A DNA stretch of 33,018 bases from contig CAIMEE010000433.1 of assembly GCA_903839865.1 (NCBI GenBank), positions 1 through 33,018 of the forward strand, in the 5' to 3' direction. This document shows positions 9,581 through 31,288 of this stretch, piece by piece. Every line of letters begins with the position of its first letter. The stretch's first letter is position 1. The DNA comes from Enhydrobacter aerosaccus. GTDB taxonomy: Bacteria > Pseudomonadota > Alphaproteobacteria > Reyranellales > Reyranellaceae. Position numbers and translations under genes: made by a program. The notes beneath the pieces are model-generated. The model was not told the origin of the DNA, ran no database searches, and saw only the letters and a program-made list of their open reading frames with translations.

Positions 9581-11713
9581 GTGGAAGCTAACCATACGCT
9601 GGCGATTTTTGCGGCCCAGTTGATCCTGCTGCTGCTGACCGGACGCCTGTTGGGCGAAGTGATGAACCGCTTCGGCCAGCCGGCGCTGTTCGGACAGTTG
9701 ATCGCGGGTGTCGTTCTCGGCCCCTCGGTGTTTGGCCTGCTGTGGCCCGAGGGACGGGAATTCATCTTCCCAGACAACAAGACCCTGAAGACGATGATCG
9801 ATGCGATCTCGCAGATCGGCATCCTCCTGCTTCTCCTGCTGACCGGCATGGAAACCAACCTGGCCCTGGTGCAGCGCCGCAAGCGCGCGGTTGTCGCTTC
9901 CTCCCTCTCCGGCATCGCCGTTCCTTTCGCCCTGGGCGTGGCGATGGCCTATGCGCTTCCGGGCGGCGCCATTCCGATGCACGAGAACAGGCTGGTTACG
10001 GCGTTGTTCCTCGGCACGGCGCTGTCGATCTCGTCGGTGAAGATCGTGGCCATGGTGCTGATCGACATCGGCGCGATGCGGCGCGATCTCGGCCAGCTCA
10101 TCCTCGCGACGGCCATCCTCGACGATACGATCGCCTGGATCATCATCGCGGTGATCGCGGGCATCGCTTCGCACGGCACGATCGACCTTGCCACGATCGG
10201 CGCGAGCCTGGCCGGGACGGCGCTGTTCCTGGCCTTCAGCCTGACGATCGGCCAGCGGCTGGTGGCCCGCACCATCGTCTGGGTGAACGACCACATGACG
10301 ATCGACGTGCCGGTGATCACCACCATCATCGTCATCATGCTGGCGATGTCGCTCACCACCGAGCTGATCGGCGTGCACACGGCGCTGGGCGCCTTCATCG
10401 CCGGCATCCTGGTGGGCCGCTCGCCGATCCTGACCGAGCAGATCGAGAACCAGGTGCGCGGCTTCGTCTTCGCCTTCTTCAGCCCGGTGTTCTTCGCCGT
10501 GGCAGGCCTCGGCATGGACCTGCGCACGCTGGCGGACGGCAAGCTGGCCCTGTTCACGGTGGCCATCATCGTCGTCGCCAGCGTCGGCAAGTTCTGCGGC
10601 GCGCTGGTGGGCGGCCGGTTGGGCGGGCTGACGACCCGGGAGTCGCTGGCGCTGGGCGTCGGCCTCAACGCGCGCGGCTCGACCGAAGTGATCATTGCCT
10701 CGATCGGCCTCGCCATGGGGGCGCTCAGCAACCAGCTCTACACGATGATCGTGGCCATGGCCGTGATCACCACCATGGCGATGCCGCCGATGCTGCGCTG
10801 GGTCATGGCGCGCGTGCCGCTCGGCGAGGAAGAGACCAAACGCCTCGAAAAGGAAGAAGCCGAGGCGCTCGAACACCTGCCGAAGATGGAGCGCGCGCTG
10901 GTCTATGCCGACGACAGTCCCAACGGCCGTCTGGCGTCGCGCCTGGCCGGCCTGTTTGCGGCCCGCCAGGAAGTGCTGACGACCGTGCTCCAGCCCAAGG
11001 CCACCGATGCCGAAAGTGCCGACGAGACGACCCGGCGCGCGCATCTGTCCGAGGCGGCCCAGACGGTCCTGGCCGGCACCGAAGCCAAGCCCGCGATCGA
11101 GCAGCTCGTGATGGAGCGGCCGGGCGATCACGAGAACGCCATCGAGCGCGAGATCGCGCGCGGTTACGACATCGCCTTCGTGGGCATCGATCGGCCCATC
11201 GCCGAGTCGCAGCTGCGCTTCGAGGAGCGGCTGCAGAAGCTCGTCAACAGCTTCGACGGGCCGGTAGCGATCGCGATCAACGGCGCGGGCGCGGCGGGGC
11301 CGGCCGACGTGCCGCTCGACATCCTGTTGCCGGCCGCGGGCACGCAGGACGCCCGCCTCGCCACCGAGATCGCGATCTCCCTGGCGGCGGCGACCAAGGG
11401 CAACGTGACGGCGCTGCATGTGTTCGATCCCCAGGCCGATACCGCCGTGCTGCGCGGTCGCGGACGGCGCGCCGGCATGTCGGTGCTCGTCGACGTGCAT
11501 CGCGCCGGCAAGCGCGGCGGGGTTCCCGTGAAAGGACTGACGGCGACCAACATCCGGCCGGAGGCGGAGATCAGGCGTGCGCTGCGCGGCGGTGGCTTCG
11601 ACCTCGTCGTGCTCGGCACGTCGTTGCGACATGGCGAGACGAGGTTCCTCGGGCCGCGCACGGCGGCGCTGATCCGGGTCGTGCGCACACCGATGCTCCT
11701 GATCGCGCGTTGA
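9581..11713 (+). CDS. CPA2-family cation:proton antiporter with C-terminal stress-protein-like domains
   Basis: Predicted Na+(K+)/H+ antiporter of 710 residues. The first ~410 residues form the membrane domain: FGQPALFGQLIAGVVLGPSVFG (about 31-52), LLLLLTGMETNL, and the ion-site pair D181-D182 in ATAILDDTIAWI. HTALGAFIAGILVGR and LNARGSTEVIIASIGL follow. A cytoplasmic region with two universal-stress-protein-like halves (about 440-710) ends in FDLVVLGTSLRHGETRFLGPRTAALI, resembling the USP nucleotide-binding loop. Start GTG 9581 has GGGGGA about 6 bp upstream and begins just before TM1; longer in-frame extensions run antisense through the amidase and are rejected. It stands alone in its orientation before a dioxygenase gene. 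A role in pH or osmotic homeostasis is inferred from the family. Confidence 0.92.
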   Translation: MEANHTLAIFAAQLILLLLTGRLLGEVMNRFGQPALFGQLIAGVVLGPSVFGLLWPEGREFIFPDNKTLKTMIDAISQIGILLLLLLTGMETNLALVQRRKRAVVASSLSGIAVPFALGVAMAYALPGGAIPMHENRLVTALFLGTALSISSVKIVAMVLIDIGAMRRDLGQLILATAILDDTIAWIIIAVIAGIASHGTIDLATIGASLAGTALFLAFSLTIGQRLVARTIVWVNDHMTIDVPVITTIIVIMLAMSLTTELIGVHTALGAFIAGILVGRSPILTEQIENQVRGFVFAFFSPVFFAVAGLGMDLRTLADGKLALFTVAIIVVASVGKFCGALVGGRLGGLTTRESLALGVGLNARGSTEVIIASIGLAMGALSNQLYTMIVAMAVITTMAMPPMLRWVMARVPLGEEETKRLEKEEAEALEHLPKMERALVYADDSPNGRLASRLAGLFAARQEVLTTVLQPKATDAESADETTRRAHLSEAAQTVLAGTEAKPAIEQLVMERPGDHENAIEREIARGYDIAFVGIDRPIAESQLRFEERLQKLVNSFDGPVAIAINGAGAAGPADVPLDILLPAAGTQDARLATEIAISLAAATKGNVTALHVFDPQADTAVLRGRGRRAGMSVLVDVHRAGKRGGVPVKGLTATNIRPEAEIRRALRGGGFDLVVLGTSLRHGETRFLGPRTAALIRVVRTPMLLIAR

Positions 11714-11863: not shown

Positions 11864-12712
11864 ATGAGGAACAGTCGCCTGGACGTACGGCCGCTCTCCG
11901 GCGCAGGCGGCGCGGAGATCTTCGGCGTCGACGTCGCGCAGGATCTCGACGACGACACGGTCCGCGACATCCGCGACGCATTGAACGAGCATTGCGTGGT
12001 CTTCTTTCGCGACCAGCAGATCGACGTCGCCCGGCACAAGGCGTTCGCGCGGAAGTTCGGCCCGCTCTTCATCCATCCCAACTACGGGACGACCGGCGAC
12101 GATCCGGAGGTCGTCATGGTGCGGCGCGAGCCCGGCGACGCCGGCCACATCGGCGAGGACTGGCACACCGACACGACCATGGTCGCGGAGCCGCCGATGG
12201 GCGCGATCCTCTACGGCATCGACGTGCCGCCCTACGGCGGCGACACCATGTTTGCCAACCAGTATCTCGCCTACGACGCGCTCTCGCCCACCATGAGGAA
12301 GATGCTGGAGGGCCTGCGCGGCGTGCACAGCGACATCACCGAGGCGGGGCCGCTCGCCGGCAAGAAAAACAAGAGCCGATCGACCAAGCATCGCGACGAT
12401 GCTGCCTGGCAGGAGACCCGCAACACGCACCCGATCGTGCGGACCAATCGCGAAACAGGTCGGCGCTGCCTATTCGTCAATGCCGCCAACACGATCGGCA
12501 TCGAGGGCATGACCGAAGCGGAAAGCAAGGCACTGCTCGGCTTCCTGCTCGAGCATGGCAACCGGCCGGAATTCACCTTCCGATTCCGCTGGCAGAAGGG
12601 TTCGATCGCCTTCTGGGACAATCGCAGCACCAGGCACATCGCGCTGGGCGATACCGGACCGTTCCCACGGCTGATGCGCCGCATCCAGATCGGCGGCGAC
12701 AAGCCCGTCTAG
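11864..12712 (+). CDS. TauD/TfdA-family Fe(II)/2-oxoglutarate dioxygenase
   Basis: Cytoplasmic dioxygenase of 282 residues, full length for the family. The iron triad is H101 and D103 in DWHTD, and H258 in STRHIALGD. R273 in RLMRRIQIGGD sits 15 residues after the distal His, where TauD binds 2-oxoglutarate. ATG 11864 follows GGGGAAGGAC, a strong ribosome-binding site. Members hydroxylate taurine, alkylsulfates, aryloxyalkanoates or other acids; which one cannot be told here. It stands 150 bp after the antiporter, and that spacer holds no recognisable gene. Its stop overlaps that of the convergent NHL gene in a shared CTAG (12709-12712). Confidence 0.93.
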   Translation: MRNSRLDVRPLSGAGGAEIFGVDVAQDLDDDTVRDIRDALNEHCVVFFRDQQIDVARHKAFARKFGPLFIHPNYGTTGDDPEVVMVRREPGDAGHIGEDWHTDTTMVAEPPMGAILYGIDVPPYGGDTMFANQYLAYDALSPTMRKMLEGLRGVHSDITEAGPLAGKKNKSRSTKHRDDAAWQETRNTHPIVRTNRETGRRCLFVNAANTIGIEGMTEAESKALLGFLLEHGNRPEFTFRFRWQKGSIAFWDNRSTRHIALGDTGPFPRLMRRIQIGGDKPV

Positions 12713-25091: not shown

Positions 25092-26270
25092 CTAATCTCT
25101 CTGAACGCACATCGCGATGCCCATGCCGCCGCCGATGCAGAGGGTGGCGAGGCCCTTCTTGGCGTCGCGCTTCTGCATTTCGTAGAGGAGCGTCGTGAGT
25201 ACGCGCGCGCCCGAGGCGCCGATCGGGTGGCCGAGCGCGATCGCGCCGCCGTTGACGTTGAGCTTGGCGGGATCGACGCCGAGTTCCTTGCCGACGGCGA
25301 GGGCTTGCGCCGCAAAGGCTTCGTTGGCTTCGACGAGATCGAGGTCCTTCACCGTCCAGCCGGCCTTCTTGAGCGCAGCCTGCGAGGCGGTCACCGGGCC
25401 GATGCCCATCACCTTGGGATCGACGCCCGTGGTCGCCCACGACACGATCTTCGCGAGCGGCGTGATGCCGCGCTTCTTGGCTTCGTCGGCGCTCATCAGC
25501 ACCATGGCGGCCGCGCCGTCGTTGATGCCCGAGGCGTTGCCGGCCGTCACCGAGCCGTCCTTGGCGAAGGCGGGCTTCAGCTTGGCCAGCGTCTCCGCCG
25601 TCGTGCCGTGACGCGGGAACTCGTCGGTGTCGACCACGACGTCGCCCTTGCGGGTCTTCACAGTGACCGGGACGATTTCGTCCTTGAAGCGGCCGGCCTT
25701 CTGCGCCGCCTCGGCCTTGTTCTGAGACGAGGCCGCGAAGGCGTCCTGCTCGACGCGAGTGATCTGGTACTTCTGCGCCACGTTCTCGGCGGTGTTGCCC
25801 ATGTGATAGCCGTTGAAGGCATCCCACAGCCCGTCCTTGATCATGGTGTCGACCATCTTGAGGTCGCCCATCTTGGTGCCGTCGCGCATGTAGCCCGCGT
25901 GCGGCGCCTGGCTCATGCTCTCCTGGCCGCCGACCACCATGATGTTGGCGTCGCCATTCCTGATCGCCTGCCAGCCGAAGGCGACGGCGCGCAGGCCCGA
26001 GCCGCAGAGCTGGTTGATGCCGAGCGCGGTCTTCTCGACCGGGATACCGGCGTTCACTGCGGCCTGGCGTGCCGGGTTCTGTCCCTGACCGGCGGTCAGG
26101 ATCTGGCCCATGATGACTTCGTCGACTTCCTCGGGCTTCACATTGGCGCGCAAGAGTGCGCCGGTGATGGCGGCCTTGCCCAGGTCGTGGGCGGGCACGT
26201 GGCCGAAGGCGCCGTTGAACGCGCCGACGGGCGTGCGCGCTGCGCTCGCGATGACGATATCGGATGCCAT
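25092..26270 (-). CDS. phaA: Acetyl-CoA C-acetyltransferase (beta-ketothiolase)
   Basis: Biosynthetic thiolase of 392 residues that condenses two acetyl-CoA to acetoacetyl-CoA, the first step of polyhydroxybutyrate synthesis. All catalytic residues sit at the classical positions: nucleophile C89 in [13 protein letters not shown]348 in [14 protein letters not shown], and C378 in [26 protein letters not shown] is the biosynthetic-type pattern. ATG 26270 has AGGAG 7 bp upstream. It is followed by a hairpin and a long spacer, so it is probably the end of its transcript; a 74-bp gap separates it from the upstream oxidase gene. Confidence 0.96.
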
Positions 26271-26344
26271 TGAACTTCTCCTAACAGGCCCTGCAACCTC
26301 AAGATGGGGATGTTATAGACGCGCCGCCATCCCCTGCAAGGAAG

Positions 26345-28129
26345 CTAGGCACGGCGGGTGAAGCCGTCGGGGCTCCAGTCGTCGCTGCCGACGCCGTTAT
26401 GGACAAAGAACAGCCCGTCGGGATCGTATTTCTGCTTCACCACGCGCAGACGACCGTAGTTGCTTCCCCAATAGGCAGACTGCCAGCCTTTCTGGAAGTA
26501 GCTCGATTCGGAGACATAGGCGCCATTGTCGGGCGCGAGCTTCGTCACCTCGGCCAGCGAGGCGCTGACGGCGGCGGCCTCGATCTTGGCCTTGGCGAGA
26601 TCGGGCTCGTGGCCCGCGATGCCGGCGAAGGCCGGCGCCCCCGAGGCGGAGACGATCGCCAGCGCGAAGGCGTCGAGCACGGCGGGATTGGTCGCAGTGT
26701 CCCGCGCGGCAGCAATGGCTTCGGGCGGCGCGCCCGCCAGGCCCTTGTTGAAGTGGAGCTGGAGCGACCATTTGCGCGACGCCTCGTAGAGTGCGTCGAC
26801 CAGCTTCGCCTGGTTGGCAGAATCGATCAGCGACTGCGGCAGCCATGCCGATTCGTAGTTGTGCAGATACCAGCCCGCCTCGCCGACATTGCCCGCCCAA
26901 TAGATCGCATCGGCTGGCGCACCGGGCCGGTCGTCCGAGCGGATCGCCGTCGGGATGTTCTGCTTCAGGAACGCGGCATCCCAAAAGAAATGCGCGGGTG
27001 CAGCGATCGCCATCAGCGGGGTCGTCCACGCATAGTCGTTCGGCGAGGCCGAGACCCAGTCGATGAACGGCTTCCACGTCGCCTGGGCCGTCGCCATGTC
27101 GAGGCCCTGGAACACCATCTCGATGTCGAGCACGTTGTCGCGCCGGAAGCGCACCGACTCGCCCCAGTTCGGATTGAACAGCTTGTCGCGATAGAAGGCC
27201 ATGAACTGGGCGATCAGCCGCTTGTAGGCCTCGGGCGAACTCGCCTTGATGTTGCCGAAGGCGCCGCCCAGGAAATTCGGCAAGGGGTGCGTCTTGAGCG
27301 TGATGCGCGTCACGACTCCGAAGCTGCCGCCACCGCCGCCTTTCAGCGCCCAGAAGAGATCGCGGTTGGTGCAGTTGTTGGCGATGCGGATCTCGCCGTC
27401 GGCCGTCACGATCTCCGCTTCGAGCAGGCTCGCCGCCGCCATGCCGAAGTTCTTGGAGAAGCTGCCGAAGCCGCCGCTCTGGATCAGCCCCGCCACGCCC
27501 ACGGTGCAGCAGCCGCCGCCCTGCACGTAACGCCCGGTCTTGGTCACCGCGGCGTAGGCCTTCAGCCAGATGTTGCCAGAACCCAGCGACACCGCCGGCA
27601 GCGGCGCGTCAGAGCAGCCCTTGGCCACGAAGGCGTCGTGCATCTCGATGGAGTCCATCGGCCGCGTGCGGATCAGCAGCGAGTCGGGCGCGTTCGACGT
27701 GCCCTGATAGCTGTGGCCGCCGCCGCGCACGGCCAGTCGCAGCTTGTTCTCGCGGGCAAAGTTCACCGCGGCCGCCACGTCGGCTGAGTTGCGGGCATCG
27801 ACGGCATAGGCGCTGGGCTGCGACGTCCAGGCCTCGGCCCAGCCGGTGGTCTGCGTCAGCGCGACATTGTCCCGGATGAAGTACGGGTTCTTGAACTGCT
27901 TGAAGATCGCGTCGCAGGTCGCGGCATCGGCGCCCTTGCAGGCCTCGAGCGGCGAGCGGACGGCGGTGAGCTGGCCACCGACGGCCTTGTTCAGCTCCTG
28001 CCACTTGGCCTCCGTTGGCCAGCCGGGCTCCCCGGGGCGGACGCGCTTGAAGGCGGGCGCTTGGGCCCGCACGGAAGCCGGCAAAACGGACAGGCAGGCG
28101 GCAGTCTTGAGAAGGTCGCGGCGGTTCAT
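26345..28129 (-). CDS. Tat-exported FAD-binding oxidoreductase, BBE type
   Basis: Flavin-linked oxidase of 594 residues. The signal peptide MNRRDLLKTAACLSVLPASVRAQA carries a twin-arginine motif, so it is exported folded. The FAD-binding 4 domain has RLAVRGGGHSYQG, where H139 aligns with the His that holds FAD in berberine-bridge-enzyme proteins. GGGCCTVGVAG follows, where C207 aligns with their second, cysteinyl attachment site, so bicovalent flavin is likely. The C-terminal BBE segment reads YGRLRVVKQKYDPDGLFFVHNGVGSDDW. Such enzymes oxidise alcohols, sugars or alkaloids using O2. ATG 28129 has GGGAGAG upstream. The 121-bp upstream spacer carries 21-bp-phased repeats next to a LytTR regulator gene. 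Confidence 0.92.
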   Translation of the reverse strand: MNRRDLLKTAACLSVLPASVRAQAPAFKRVRPGEPGWPTEAKWQELNKAVGGQLTAVRSPLEACKGADAATCDAIFKQFKNPYFIRDNVALTQTTGWAEAWTSQPSAYAVDARNSADVAAAVNFARENKLRLAVRGGGHSYQGTSNAPDSLLIRTRPMDSIEMHDAFVAKGCSDAPLPAVSLGSGNIWLKAYAAVTKTGRYVQGGGCCTVGVAGLIQSGGFGSFSKNFGMAAASLLEAEIVTADGEIRIANNCTNRDLFWALKGGGGGSFGVVTRITLKTHPLPNFLGGAFGNIKASSPEAYKRLIAQFMAFYRDKLFNPNWGESVRFRRDNVLDIEMVFQGLDMATAQATWKPFIDWVSASPNDYAWTTPLMAIAAPAHFFWDAAFLKQNIPTAIRSDDRPGAPADAIYWAGNVGEAGWYLHNYESAWLPQSLIDSANQAKLVDALYEASRKWSLQLHFNKGLAGAPPEAIAAARDTATNPAVLDAFALAIVSASGAPAFAGIAGHEPDLAKAKIEAAAVSASLAEVTKLAPDNGAYVSESSYFQKGWQSAYWGSNYGRLRVVKQKYDPDGLFFVHNGVGSDDWSPDGFTRRA

Positions 28130-28199
28130 GGAACTCTCCCGTGCTGAGTGTGTCGCACGTCTAGCTATCGTCCAAGTCACTGAATCTGGCGCATTTTGT

Positions 28200-28250
28200 G
28201 ATGACCGGCGAGGTCCGTGGGACGACCGGCGTGTGCCAAGGGACGACCGG
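28200..28250 (-). promoter_or_regulatory. Three 9-bp repeats at 21-bp period (candidate LytTR operator)
   Basis: GATGACCGG (28200-28208), GACGACCGG (28221-28229) and GACGACCGG (28242-28250) recur at exactly 21 bp, that is 9-bp repeats with 12-bp spacers. On the minus strand they read CCGGTCRTC, differing at one or two positions from the AlgR core CCGTTCGTC. They lie 71-121 bp upstream of the FAD-oxidase start and end at the LytTR gene stop codon. Direct repeats two helical turns apart are the known LytTR operator layout. Confidence 0.65.
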
Positions 28251-29078
28251 TCAGGTCTTCACAGGGGCCAGCGCCTCGAAGCGCTGGCGATAGCGGCGGC
28301 TCAGATTCACTTCCGCACCGTCCTGGAGCCGGATGCGCCAGTCGCCGCTCACCCAGGGCACGACCTCGGCCACCCGGGAAATGTTCACGACGTGTGATTT
28401 GTGGACCCGCACGAAGCGTTTGGGGTCGAGTTCGGCCTCCAGCCTGGCCAGCGACGAGCGGATCTCGAAGGTCTCGCCGCCGACATGCAGGATGGCGTAG
28501 TTGCCCGAGGCCTCGATCCAGTCGATGTCGGCCACCTCGACCATGATCTCGCTGCCGCCGCGCTTGCGCACGGCGAAGCGCTCCGGGGGTGCCTCCGCTT
28601 TCGGCGCGGGCGCGACCGCCCTCTCGCGCTCGCGCAGGTATCGGAACGCCATGATGCCGAGGTTCATCACGCAGTAAGTGAAGATGTCCTTGGTGAATTC
28701 GTAGGCCAGCCGGTCGAGCGTGATCGGAAAGCGGTACGACGTGTCGCCCAGGATGCCCCCGAACCAGAGCATGCGCAGCGCGCCCATGCCCAGCGTATGG
28801 ACGATGCTGAACACTAGGAGGGCCACGGCGTGGGCCGCAAAGTTGCGCGGGCTGGTCAGGGGAAAGCGACGCTGCATCCAGTAGACCGCCGGGATGAGCG
28901 CCGCGATCACGACGTGGCTGGTGACCTGGATGGCGAAGGACCATCCGAAGGGCGTGCTCGCGCCGCGGCGCGCATCGTCGGCGACCGTGATGTAGGCCTG
29001 GGTGAAGCACGAGACGATCAGGATCGCGGCCCACACCGCCGCCACCACACCGCGCCACGACTGCCGGCTCATCGCCAT
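28251..29078 (-). CDS. Membrane-anchored LytTR-family transcription regulator
   Basis: Protein of 275 residues. Four hydrophobic segments (about 11-31, 47-67, 83-107 and 130-147) form an N-terminal membrane domain with no recognisable sensor name. After a charged linker rich in Ala, Pro and Glu (150-168) comes a LytTR DNA-binding domain (about 170-270), with VADIDWIEASGNYAILHVGGETFEIRSSLARLE, RFVRVHKSHVVNISRVAEV and VNLSRRYRQRFEAL. The family binds paired 9-bp direct repeats in target promoters. ATG 29078 overlaps the PhaC-like stop as TGATG, so it is translated with the PHA-synthase genes. Candidate binding sites lie just downstream, before the oxidase gene, and upstream of its own operon. 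It is a one-component design with no receiver domain. Confidence 0.92.
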   Translation of the reverse strand: MAMSRQSWRGVVAAVWAAILIVSCFTQAYITVADDARRGASTPFGWSFAIQVTSHVVIAALIPAVYWMQRRFPLTSPRNFAAHAVALLVFSIVHTLGMGALRMLWFGGILGDTSYRFPITLDRLAYEFTKDIFTYCVMNLGIMAFRYLRERERAVAPAPKAEAPPERFAVRKRGGSEIMVEVADIDWIEASGNYAILHVGGETFEIRSSLARLEAELDPKRFVRVHKSHVVNISRVAEVVPWVSGDWRIRLQDGAEVNLSRRYRQRFEALAPVKT

Positions 29079-30244
29079 CAGCGCGCCTTCAGCCAGTCGA
29101 TCAGCGGCATCCAGCACAGCTCGCGCGCGCGGCCGCTCACCATCATGCCGATGTGGCCGAGCGGCACGTCGAGGCGGGTGGCGTTCTTCAGGCCGCGTTT
29201 GGGATCGACCAGTGCCGCGGCCGACAGCGGCGGCACGATGCGGTCGCCGGACGGGATCATCACCAGCGCCGGCCGCTTGATCTTCGCGGGCAGGATGCGC
29301 TTGCCGCCGACGACCCACTTGTTCGTGCCCGGCAGATTGTCGCCGTACCAGCCGACCAGACACTCGCGCGCCGTGGGGCCGGCGAGCGGCGCGCCGCCGT
29401 TCAGCCAATCCTCCAGCAGCACGAACTCTCGCGCATGTTCGCCCTTCTGGTCCATGCCGAGGAAGCGGCCGAACTTCTTCACCGCCAGCCACGGATCGAG
29501 CGACCAGAACAGGGTCTGCAGGATATCGACCGGCAACTCGCCCGCGGTATCGGCGAGCTTGGCCAGCATCGGCCCGGCCGACAGCAGGAAGGCATGGCCG
29601 GTCTTGTCGGCGTGGAAATCCCACGGCGCCGCCAGCAGCGCGAGACCTGCGACCTTGCGCGGCTGCCGCGCCGTCAGCGCGACGGTGAGCGTGCCGCCCA
29701 TGCAATAGCCCATCACCGCCGGTGCACGGCGCGCACGCTTCGTCACGAACGCGAGCGCGCGTTCAAGGCGTTGGACGTAAGCCGTCGCATCGAAGCGTCG
29801 CTCGTCGGCATCGGGCGTGCCCCAGTCGACGAGGTACGGCCGCAGACCTTCGGCGGCCATGGCGCGCAGCAGGCTTTTCTCGGCGGTGAGGTCGAGCACT
29901 TCCCAACGGTTGATCAGCGATGGAACCACCAGCACGGCCCGGACGCGGCGCTTGCGGGCGGCGGGATGCGTGGCACCGTAATCGAGCAGGCGCGTATTAC
30001 CCTCGCTCCAGACGGCGGGCGGATTCTCGAGGTCGCGATGGACCGGGTGATTGCGGTAGGCCAGCACGCCCTCGGCCAGGCGATCGAGGCGCCGGCCGAT
30101 CTCGCGATGAAGGGCGGCTTCGAACTTCTCGGCACCGTCCGGCGGGATTTCCGTCAGCAGCTCAGCGAGCGGCGAGCTTGCTTTCGAGTTCGGCGAGCCT
30201 TGCTTCGAGAGCCGCCACGCGCTTTCGGAGCTCGCCAACGTCAT
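29078..30244 (-). CDS. phaC: Short PhaC-like poly(3-hydroxyalkanoate) synthase / alpha/beta hydrolase
   Basis: Alpha/beta-fold protein of 388 residues with a PHA-synthase triad: C181 in the modified lipase box VMGYCMGG, D334 in PSGDRIV and H364 in LGHIGMM. VVPSLINRWEVLDL and PYLVDWGTPD match PhaC. A depolymerase-type hydrolase would carry Ser, not Cys. It lacks the ~200-residue N-terminal domain of class I PhaC and so has class III/IV size, classes that need a PhaE or PhaR-subunit partner. ATG 30244 has GGGGAC upstream and overlaps the preceding gene by 83 bp; the only start near that gene's stop would be CTG at 30160 or 30157. The start is therefore the weakest point. It is followed by the LytTR gene with a TGATG overlap. 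Confidence 0.85.
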   Translation of the reverse strand: MTLASSESAWRLSKQGSPNSKASSPLAELLTEIPPDGAEKFEAALHREIGRRLDRLAEGVLAYRNHPVHRDLENPPAVWSEGNTRLLDYGATHPAARKRRVRAVLVVPSLINRWEVLDLTAEKSLLRAMAAEGLRPYLVDWGTPDADERRFDATAYVQRLERALAFVTKRARRAPAVMGYCMGGTLTVALTARQPRKVAGLALLAAPWDFHADKTGHAFLLSAGPMLAKLADTAGELPVDILQTLFWSLDPWLAVKKFGRFLGMDQKGEHAREFVLLEDWLNGGAPLAGPTARECLVGWYGDNLPGTNKWVVGGKRILPAKIKRPALVMIPSGDRIVPPLSAAALVDPKRGLKNATRLDVPLGHIGMMVSGRARELCWMPLIDWLKAR

Positions 30245-30494
30245 CAGCGCCGTCCCCAGATGGAGCGGCAGCGGCCGAGGACCTGTTCGGAGACCCGTTC
30301 TGGGAGCTGGCGGCATGCGCGGTACCTTGGGCAGCTTGTATTGCAGACGCAACCTGCGCATTCGCGGCCGCGAACAGCCGGGCTATCTGCTCGGTCAGTG
30401 CCGGATCCGACGCAAGGCCGGAAAGCTGGCTCTGCCAGAGATCGAGATACCGCCGGGCCAGCGTGTCGAATGTATCGTCGTTTCCGGAAGCCAT
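30162..30494 (-). CDS. Small coiled-coil protein, candidate PhaE-like synthase subunit
   Basis: Protein of 110 residues. An N-terminal helical part MASGNDDTFDTLARRYLDLWQSQLSGL is followed by a second helix (30-57), an Ala/Ser/Pro-rich linker (58-85), and a C-terminal coiled coil with an unbroken 4-3-4-3-4 pattern, L89-V93-L96-L100-L103-L107. It lies directly upstream of and overlaps the PhaC-like gene, where PhaE (class III) or the PhaR subunit (class IV) would be expected; PhaE also ends in a coiled coil but is several times longer. Start ATG 30494 has GAGGAC very close; ATG 30512 is an alternative. The function is inferred from context and could be phasin-like. Confidence 0.65.
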   Translation of the reverse strand: MASGNDDTFDTLARRYLDLWQSQLSGLASDPALTEQIARLFAAANAQVASAIQAAQGTAHAASSQNGSPNRSSAAAAPSGDGADDVGELRKRVAALEARLAELESKLAAR

Positions 30495-30640
30495 GTCCTC
30501 ACTATAGACCATCGTTGCAGGAACGGGTGTTCGCAGACGCAAACCGTGTCTTGTCGCACTGCGGCATCGGGTCTAATGTGACGAACGGTGTGTAAACGGG
30601 CGTTTAGCGTGTCGCGGGGGCGAAGAGGAGCGCAAGCGTA
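30495..30640. promoter_or_regulatory. Divergent control region between the PHA-synthase operon and phaR
   Basis: This 146-bp region drives the leftward coiled-coil/PhaC/LytTR genes and the rightward phaR. It contains GCA/TGC elements of the kind PhaR repressors bind (TTGCAG at 30515-30520; CGCACTGCG at 30555-30563), the LytTR-type site at 30580-30589, and the phaR ribosome-binding site GAGGAG at 30625-30630. Exact promoter boxes are not clear. Confidence 0.55.
30580..30589 (-). promoter_or_regulatory. AlgR-core-like LytTR site upstream of the PHA-synthase operon
   Basis: The minus strand reads ACCGTTCGTC, identical to the AlgR core consensus. The plus-strand 9-mer GACGAACGG differs by one base from the GACGACCGG repeats at 28221 and 28242. 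A weaker 7/9 copy, CAGGAACGG, lies at 30518-30526. The site is 86-95 bp upstream of the coiled-coil gene start. Confidence 0.5.
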
Positions 30641-31288
30641 ATGGCCGATCAGGCAGTACCCGAGGGCGGCCCAAAGCCCGCTCCGGTGGTTATCAAAAAG
30701 TATGCGAACCGGCGGCTCTACAACACCGCCACCTCTTCCTATGTGACGCTCGATCATCTGTCGACGATGGTGAAGGCCAAGACCGATTTCGTGGTCTACG
30801 ACGCCAAGTCCGGCGAGGACATCACGCGTCCGGTACTGACGCAGATCATCTTCGAGGAAGAGAGCAAGGGCGGCCAGACGCTGTTGCCGATTCCGTTCCT
30901 GCGCCAGCTCATCTCGTTCTATGGCGACAGCCTGCAGGGCGTGGTGCCGCAATATCTCGAGATGTCGATGACGCAGTTCGCGCGCAATCAGGAGCAGATG
31001 CGCAAGTACATGCAGAACGCGTTCGGCTTCAATCCGTTCCAGCAGTTCGAGTCGATGGGCAAGCAGAACATGGCGATGTTCGAGAACGCCATGCGCCTGT
31101 TCAACCCGTTCGCCGCGGGCCAGGGCGGTGTTCCGGGTGCCGCTCCCGCGCACACCAACGGCGCCGAAGCGCCCAAGGCCGACGCCACGCCGCCGGCCGG
31201 ACCGCCCAGCGAAGAGGCGATCGACGATCTCAAGCGCAAGCTCGACGAGTTGCAGAGCCAGCTCGCGCAGTTCGGCAAGAAGAGCTGA
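30641..31288 (+). CDS. phaR: Polyhydroxyalkanoate synthesis repressor PhaR
   Basis: Regulator of 215 residues that in related bacteria binds both PHA granules and DNA and represses phasin and synthesis genes until polymer accumulates. The N-terminal PHB/PHA accumulation regulator DNA-binding domain is at about 15-75 (VVIKKYANRRLYNTATSSYVTLDHLSTMVK...VVYDAKSGEDITRPVLTQII). The PHB_acc segment is at about 80-125 (LPIPFLRQLISFYGDSLQGVVPQYLEMSM). A Met/Phe-rich stretch and a Pro/Ala linker follow, and it ends in a short coiled coil IDDLKRKLDELQSQLAQFG. ATG 30641 has GAGGAG 10 bp upstream. It diverges from the synthase operon and is followed by a DUF1289 gene 4 bp away. Confidence 0.95.
   Translation: MADQAVPEGGPKPAPVVIKKYANRRLYNTATSSYVTLDHLSTMVKAKTDFVVYDAKSGEDITRPVLTQIIFEEESKGGQTLLPIPFLRQLISFYGDSLQGVVPQYLEMSMTQFARNQEQMRKYMQNAFGFNPFQQFESMGKQNMAMFENAMRLFNPFAAGQGGVPGAAPAHTNGAEAPKADATPPAGPPSEEAIDDLKRKLDELQSQLAQFGKKS

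Follow-up and report, generated by a model that had tools for sequence, protein, structure and literature searches.

The window, by which we mean the whole 33,018-nucleotide stretch of DNA that was analysed, carries on its minus strand an alpha/beta hydrolase gene, a LytTR regulator gene, an array of three short direct repeats, a gene for an oxidase with FAD_binding_4 and BBE domains, and a thiolase gene, in that order (Table 1). The TGA stop of the hydrolase and the ATG of the regulator have one base in common, and because of this overlap the two genes are probably co-transcribed. The N-terminus of the oxidase (MNRRDLLKTAACLSVLPASVRAQA) is Tat-like by eye. We scanned the region between oxidase and thiolase and found no terminator-like site there, and thiolase is the downstream neighbour in most relatives whose locus extends that far; it is a possible read-through target of the oxidase promoter. 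The stretch from 25092 to 31288 is a neighbourhood of the PHB/PHA type, with the hydrolase and its weak PhaC_N match, the thiolase, and a PHB_acc regulator at 30641-31288; the hydrolase and thiolase of this neighbourhood are retained in relatives. It is possible that the signal of the LytTR regulator is tied to storage or lipid metabolism.

Table 1. Features of the locus and their positions in the window
Feature	Position	Strand	Evidence and remarks
Thiolase, next gene past the oxidase	25092..26270	-	Pfam
Oxidase, FAD_binding_4 and BBE domains, presumed target	26345..28129	-	Pfam; start read from sequence
Extended -10 (G-n-T-A-G), candidate	28164..28169	-	Column conservation; A in 69/69 arrays
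Conserved imperfect dyad TCAR-N4-TTGR	28172..28183	-	Column conservation, 69 arrays
Repeat unit 3 (proximal), CCGGTCATC, then ACAAAA	28200..28208	-	Exact CCGGTCRTC in 62/69 arrays
Repeat unit 2, CCGGTCGTC, then CCCA	28221..28229	-	Exact CCGGTCRTC in 68/69 aligned arrays
Repeat unit 1 (distal), CCGGTCGTC	28242..28250	-	Directly 3' of LytTR stop codon; least conserved in relatives
LytTR regulator, 275 aa	28251..29078	-	PF04397, E 1.6e-23; AlphaFold model; Foldseek
Alpha/beta hydrolase	29078..30361	-	PhaC_N match below its cut-off; upstream neighbour in relatives too

It had been noted that GAYGACCGG occurs at 28200, 28221 and 28242 with 12-bp spacers, and this was confirmed in exact register: the 9-mer GATGACCGG at 28200 and two copies of GACGACCGG at 28221 and 28242 follow one another with a period of exactly 21 bp. 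Read on the minus strand, on which both flanking genes lie, the array is CCGGTCGTC-N12-CCGGTCGTC-N12-CCGGTCATC, followed by ACAAAA. The exact motif GAYGACCGG is present five times in the window, counting both strands, and the two copies outside the array, at 12088 and 26927, are each single. Among all 9-mers we looked for equally spaced triples with a period between 15 and 40 bp in which neighbours differ at no more than one position, and found the array, in two overlapping registers, and one further triple. The latter, at 11131, is the sole other such triple in the window; it has a period of 18 and is imperfect. In 200 dinucleotide shuffles of the window the mean number of such triples was 0.215, and none of the 200 contained a triple at 21 bp with a total of one mismatch or fewer. 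The genome scan that the original prediction had proposed for pairs at 21 bp was run, and in the source genome (5.52 Mb, 622 contigs) exact pairs are confined to the array; two further places match with one mismatch. The shuffles and the conservation described below rule out a chance origin of the array.

The unit next to the regulator gene had been said to touch the LytTR stop codon and to have been kept despite coding constraint. Unit 1 does abut the stop codon (28251-28253), but it does not overlap the gene, and because it lies beyond the gene end the LytTR gene places no coding constraint on it. That explanation is thus ruled out, and unit 1 is in fact the most degenerate of the three, with the exact sequence CCGGTCRTC in 13 of the 69 aligned arrays of relatives, versus 68 and 62 for the other two.

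The regulator has a LytTR domain at residues 178-269 (PF04397, 83.2 bits against a cut-off of 22.6), and the Pfam search gave nothing else above cut-off, so neither a REC nor an MHYT match. The AlphaFold model, built from 31 sequences (mean pLDDT 90.6, pTM 0.54), has four long helices of 28-35 residues (5-37, 44-71, 77-109 and 121-155) and a beta domain from residue 167, whose best solved relatives in Foldseek are the LytTR domains of 3d6w and AgrA. The FhRhHRS motif of the LytTR family appears as FVRVHKS at residues 222-228, with K for the second R, and is invariant in the 31-sequence alignment. Judged by their length and hydrophobic sequence, the helices are predicted to cross the membrane, and the regulator appears to be a one-component protein anchored in the membrane and lacking a receiver domain. 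Helical domain and LytTR domain belong to one protein and the next gene is the oxidase, so the locus does not have the HdrRM arrangement of a soluble regulator with a membrane inhibitor gene behind it. The protein had initially been set beside AlgR, AgrA and ComE; the LytTR domain bears this out, but the predicted one-component, membrane-anchored architecture, in which no receiver was found, departs from it.

Conservation of the array and its co-occurrence with the regulator

Of the 65 genomes of the genus, 60 yielded an orthologue of the regulator, which in a few is fragmentary (27 aa at a contig end in G034, a partial match in G030, two pieces in G006). Downstream of the regulator, most relatives carry the same array in the same register. 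Searching these 65 genomes for the three-unit pattern, we obtained 44 perfect matches, 10 matches with a single mismatch and 11 with two mismatches. Since a reversed control pattern gave 16 matches at up to two mismatches over the same genomes, against 65 for the pattern itself, the 11 two-mismatch matches are partly background, and we took those at G019:C84, G007:C7, G014:C16 and G016:C1:77129 and one at G006:C35 as such. Of the 44 perfect matches, 43 lie ahead of a homologue of the oxidase or the acyltransferase, the other being cut short by the end of its contig; nine of the 10 single-mismatch matches precede an oxidase or acyltransferase-3 homologue, and the tenth, at G006:C35, looks like a coding repeat. 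The acyltransferase-3 is a membrane protein with PF01757 above cut-off and an MdoC model below its cut-off.

We then aligned 69 arrays, which were picked by hand at a score of at least 22 of 27, with at least 7 of 9 in each of units 2 and 3, one register each and duplicates removed; the two-unit arrays (G007, G046, G055, G010), G030 and G061 lie outside this set. The gene behind the array is an oxidase in 28 cases and an acyltransferase in 40, and is cut off in one. The protein match begins 86-208 bp, in most cases 112-125 bp, from the array start, a distance that is overstated where the match begins inside the protein. Conservation reaches 1.95 bits per column in unit 2, 1.85 in unit 3 and 1.42 in unit 1, values that are inflated because the arrays were chosen by unit score; columns outside the units are free of this selection. 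There the spacers and the downstream flank are variable, at 0.2-0.5 bits per column (spacers about 0.4), and the conserved columns beyond the search pattern are a G before units 2 and 3, CCA after unit 2 and ACAA after unit 3, with the ACA directly after unit 3 nearly invariant. Six of the 69 first units match CCGTTCRTC, a point of likeness to the AlgR core. Loss of the 21-bp phasing in relatives had been named in advance as a result that would speak against the prediction, and the phasing proved to be kept throughout the genus and also in six genomes from elsewhere in the family.

Regulator and array also occur together. Of the 60 regulator-bearing genomes, whose sorting was entered by hand, 59 have an array with two or more units 21 bp apart: 18 have it with the oxidase beside the regulator, 34 with the acyltransferase beside the regulator, 2 with the target cut off or on another contig, and 5 elsewhere only. 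No array was found in the remaining genome, G040, which is 60% complete and in which the sequence upstream of the oxidase lies outside the data. Among the five genomes without the regulator (G005, G007, G016, G051 and G101), an array was found only in G007; this genome is 73% complete, no regulator orthologue was found in it, and the first unit of its array is 20 bp away. Genome scans of G005, G016 and G051 gave no exact two-unit pair and no convincing triple. No three-unit array was found in G101, where a two-unit array could escape because the scan used the three-unit pattern only. With kinship ignored, the association of regulator and array has p = 3.6e-5 in Fisher's test, and among genomes at least 90% complete the array is present in 45 of 45 with the regulator versus 0 of 3 without it, again ignoring kinship. 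G005 and G101 are weak tests of co-occurrence because they have no close target genes, and the acyltransferase of G051 is cut by a contig end. The clearest case is the complete genome G016, which has hydrolase, oxidase and thiolase in order, with neither regulator nor array and about 40 bp from the hydrolase match to the oxidase start.

Target genes of the array and loci beyond the genus

It is the target genes, and not the regulator gene, that the array accompanies. Thiolase comes straight after the regulator in G041 and G043, as acyltransferase does in G024 and G049; no array stands at these places, and the arrays of these four genomes are on other contigs before the oxidase. Regulator and array are on different contigs in G046. 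A second array lies before a distant oxidase in G012, G047, G033, G054, G020 and G014, besides one at the regulator or acyltransferase, and G060 has one array each for oxidase and acyltransferase. The order in G022 and G038 is regulator, array, oxidase, acyltransferase. In the source genome, the best match to the acyltransferase is 26% identical. The original prediction made the oxidase a target of the adjacent regulator, and the conserved phasing and the way the array tracks its targets agree with it, but the oxidase is not the sole presumed target in the genus, where acyltransferase-3 is the commoner one.

At six loci, matched like the other named loci to genome handles by coordinates (L023, L027, L028, L033, L069 and L071), an inserted sequence that is partly palindromic by eye lies between the regulator stop and the array, and despite these insertions the array stays next to the target gene. 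At L043 and L063 one array is followed by two oxidase homologues in tandem.

The acyltransferase is likewise preceded by the array in G105, G106, G108, G109, G110 and G111, which belong to other genera in the same family; in G108 and G109 the array lies beyond the regulator by about 1.9 and 2.5 kb. G061, from another family of the same order, has two good units. In G112 and G114, of the same family, the regulator is present and no array was found nearby. A sample of 385 genomes of the class contained 35 with a match to the regulator. Of 28 LytTR loci taken for comparison (the source-genome paralogue, G112, G114 and 25 outside the order), 27 were scored, namely all but the paralogue; a 21-bp motif pair beat all 60 random resamplings at 5 of 7 loci with a divergent acyltransferase versus 2 of 20 others. 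Several of the distant pairs run into what is annotated as the 5' end of the LytTR gene, where the units would read GTNG/GTSG. Because 21 is a multiple of 3 and several of these loci have units in annotated coding sequence, these distant LytTR/acyltransferase loci are a lead only. The units of G064 are intergenic, with spacings of 21, 31 and 20, and in G261 and G433, which have the divergent gene pair, a clear array at 21 bp is missing (their scores are reached by 4 and 24 of 60 resamplings). Upstream of a distant LytTR gene, locus L174 (G065) has CGGCTCGTC-N12-CGGCTGGTC followed by ACAAAAT, as if the repeats were autoregulatory; 4 of 60 resamplings score as high as this pair. Tentatively, and at slightly less than even odds, a four-TM LytTR protein and an acyltransferase-3 may form an old alphaproteobacterial module with an AlgR-like direct-repeat operator that drives the acyltransferase, into which part of Reyranella swapped an exported FAD oxidase while the acyltransferase was lost. 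If this is true, the source organism is among those Reyranella that have the oxidase under the operator and have lost the acyltransferase.

Promoter region and candidate mode of regulation

The conserved G-n-T-A-G downstream of the array is probably an extended -10 element. Its placement comes solely from column conservation, because scans of 26200-28400 for consensus (sigma-70) promoters and for terminators found nothing. Taking its TA as -12/-11 puts the -35 hexamer at 28190-28185 (GCCAGA, which is poor), with unit 3 ending 9 bp upstream of it; we found no recognisable -35 at the array promoter. A TTG at alignment columns 75-77 was considered as a -35 and rejected: no -10 is conserved 17 bp on, where CACACT stands in close relatives only. 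The dyad TCAA-N4-TTGR lies between the array and the presumed -10 before both types of target and has been assigned to no known site. In G012, G047, G033, G054 and G020 the arrays before the distant oxidase show it in degenerate form or not at all.

With a probability of roughly 0.87, we take the array to be the operator of the neighbouring, predicted membrane-anchored LytTR regulator, controlling the downstream oxidase promoter, with activation the likelier outcome. Nearly all relatives examined carry these repeats, identically spaced, ahead of a gene of one or the other of two kinds, and for this reason they are very probably the docking site of the regulator. The form known for LytTR operators, 9-bp direct repeats two turns apart with 10-13 bp spacers, is found here with 12-bp spacers and a 21-bp period. 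Sequence, conservation and register of the array, its coupling to regulator and targets, counted across genomes many of which are fragmented, and the predicted fold of the regulator are direct results; from them we infer promoter position, membrane anchoring, binding and the sign of regulation. A regulator multimer would engage the three 9-bp units through its LytTR domains, all from the same face of the helix, since 21 bp is two turns, and units 2 and 3 would be the main contact. Once bound, the regulator would act on the adjoining downstream promoter, which serves the Tat-like FAD oxidase and, through read-through, perhaps the thiolase as well. It would activate rather than repress, since unit 3 seems to end about 9 bp before the place of the -35, much like the repeats of LytTR regulatory systems (LRS); these are found some 10 bp ahead of the -35 and activate, according to the available text of PMC6193735.

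The same regulator might instead repress from this operator, as CoxC does, until a signal frees it from the DNA. CoxC, which represses, is indeed a membrane LytTR protein of an alphaproteobacterium and has three direct repeats, but its operator overlaps the -35, whereas unit 3 here seemingly ends about 9 bp upstream, given the inferred -10; we consider repression rather unlikely and activation about twice as probable. It is improbable that the array is bound by a different regulator, for instance a LytTR paralogue, with the LytTR protein next to it a passive bystander. The source genome does have a second LytTR gene, C363, and G007 has the array and only another LytTR-domain gene, but across the 65 genomes the array tracks the orthologue of the neighbouring regulator, and in G101 and G051, which have another LytTR-domain gene, no array was found. 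That the repeats are no protein site at all, being a remnant of tandem duplication, an iteron- or REP-like element or an RNA element, as their periodicity and the insertions between regulator and array in several relatives might suggest, is hardly credible: the spacers are unrelated while the units are held in exact register, 52 of the 54 places with at most one mismatch precede the two gene types (one of the others is a contig end and one is G006:C35), and no Rfam family scores above its gathering score, the only match being to a miRNA (E 0.81, 18.2 bits against a gathering score of 100).

Comparison with known LytTR systems

The triple repeats of CoxC and RcoM1 are the nearest operator precedents. 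In the available text of PMC11347149, CoxC of Afipia carboxidovorans is, like our candidate, an alphaproteobacterial membrane-anchored one-component LytTR regulator with three repeats two turns apart in its target promoter; the repeats at PcoxB are direct and 18-21 bp apart, and the LytTR domain binds them in EMSA. CoxC differs in having a seven-TM MHYT sensor, where the present regulator has four predicted TM helices without a Pfam name, and in its TTNNNGCN units, which overlap the -35, and its repression of the cox genes. Here the units are CCGGTCRTC, the operator is apparently upstream of the -35, and the targets are others. RcoM1 of Paraburkholderia xenovorans shares a direct-repeat triplet with 12-13 bp spacers, but it is a haem-based CO sensor and its unit is TTCNNGCA (PMC11347149, available text).

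The reverse complement of the unit had been described as identical to the AlgR core at 7-8 of 9 positions, and CCGGTCGTC agrees with the 9-bp core CCGTTCGTC at 8 of 9 (PMC4064291). AlgR is the response regulator of a two-component system, however, and its sites need not be direct repeats 12 bp apart, as the accessible part of that review has it. The LRS systems HdrRM and BrsRM resemble our array in their direct repeats, mostly with 12-bp spacers, and in the bias of these repeats to 10 bp upstream of the -35, and hdrRM has a putative extended -10 as well. They differ in having a soluble regulator with a separate membrane inhibitor, two repeats and autoregulation (PMC6193735, available text).

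HigX of Caulobacter crescentus, which we compared by architecture, has a four-helix transmembrane bundle and a C-terminal LytTR domain, with no apparent periplasmic domain in the part of PMC13384398 that is available. Its neighbours differ, being a COG4188 hydrolase and ctrA, and its ChIP motif is an inverted repeat, ATGTTASC/GSTACCAT, which counts against a direct-repeat operator here (PMC13384398). HigX itself has no settled role in the papers surveyed, and the direct-repeat array contrasts with its motif.

The operator form of triple LytTR repeats is known; new, as read from sequence, are the operator sequence and the presumed targets. Within the open-access literature surveyed, in part as excerpts and with subscription papers mostly beyond its scope, we found no earlier description of this array and regulator system, and no membrane-anchored LytTR regulator of alphaproteobacteria other than CoxC has a mapped operator. 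Beside CoxC, comparative genomics yields a putative operator resolved to the base, a pair of presumed target genes and, in G016, a natural loss of both regulator and array, with one cis-array elsewhere retained while the gene behind it varies between acyltransferase and oxidase.
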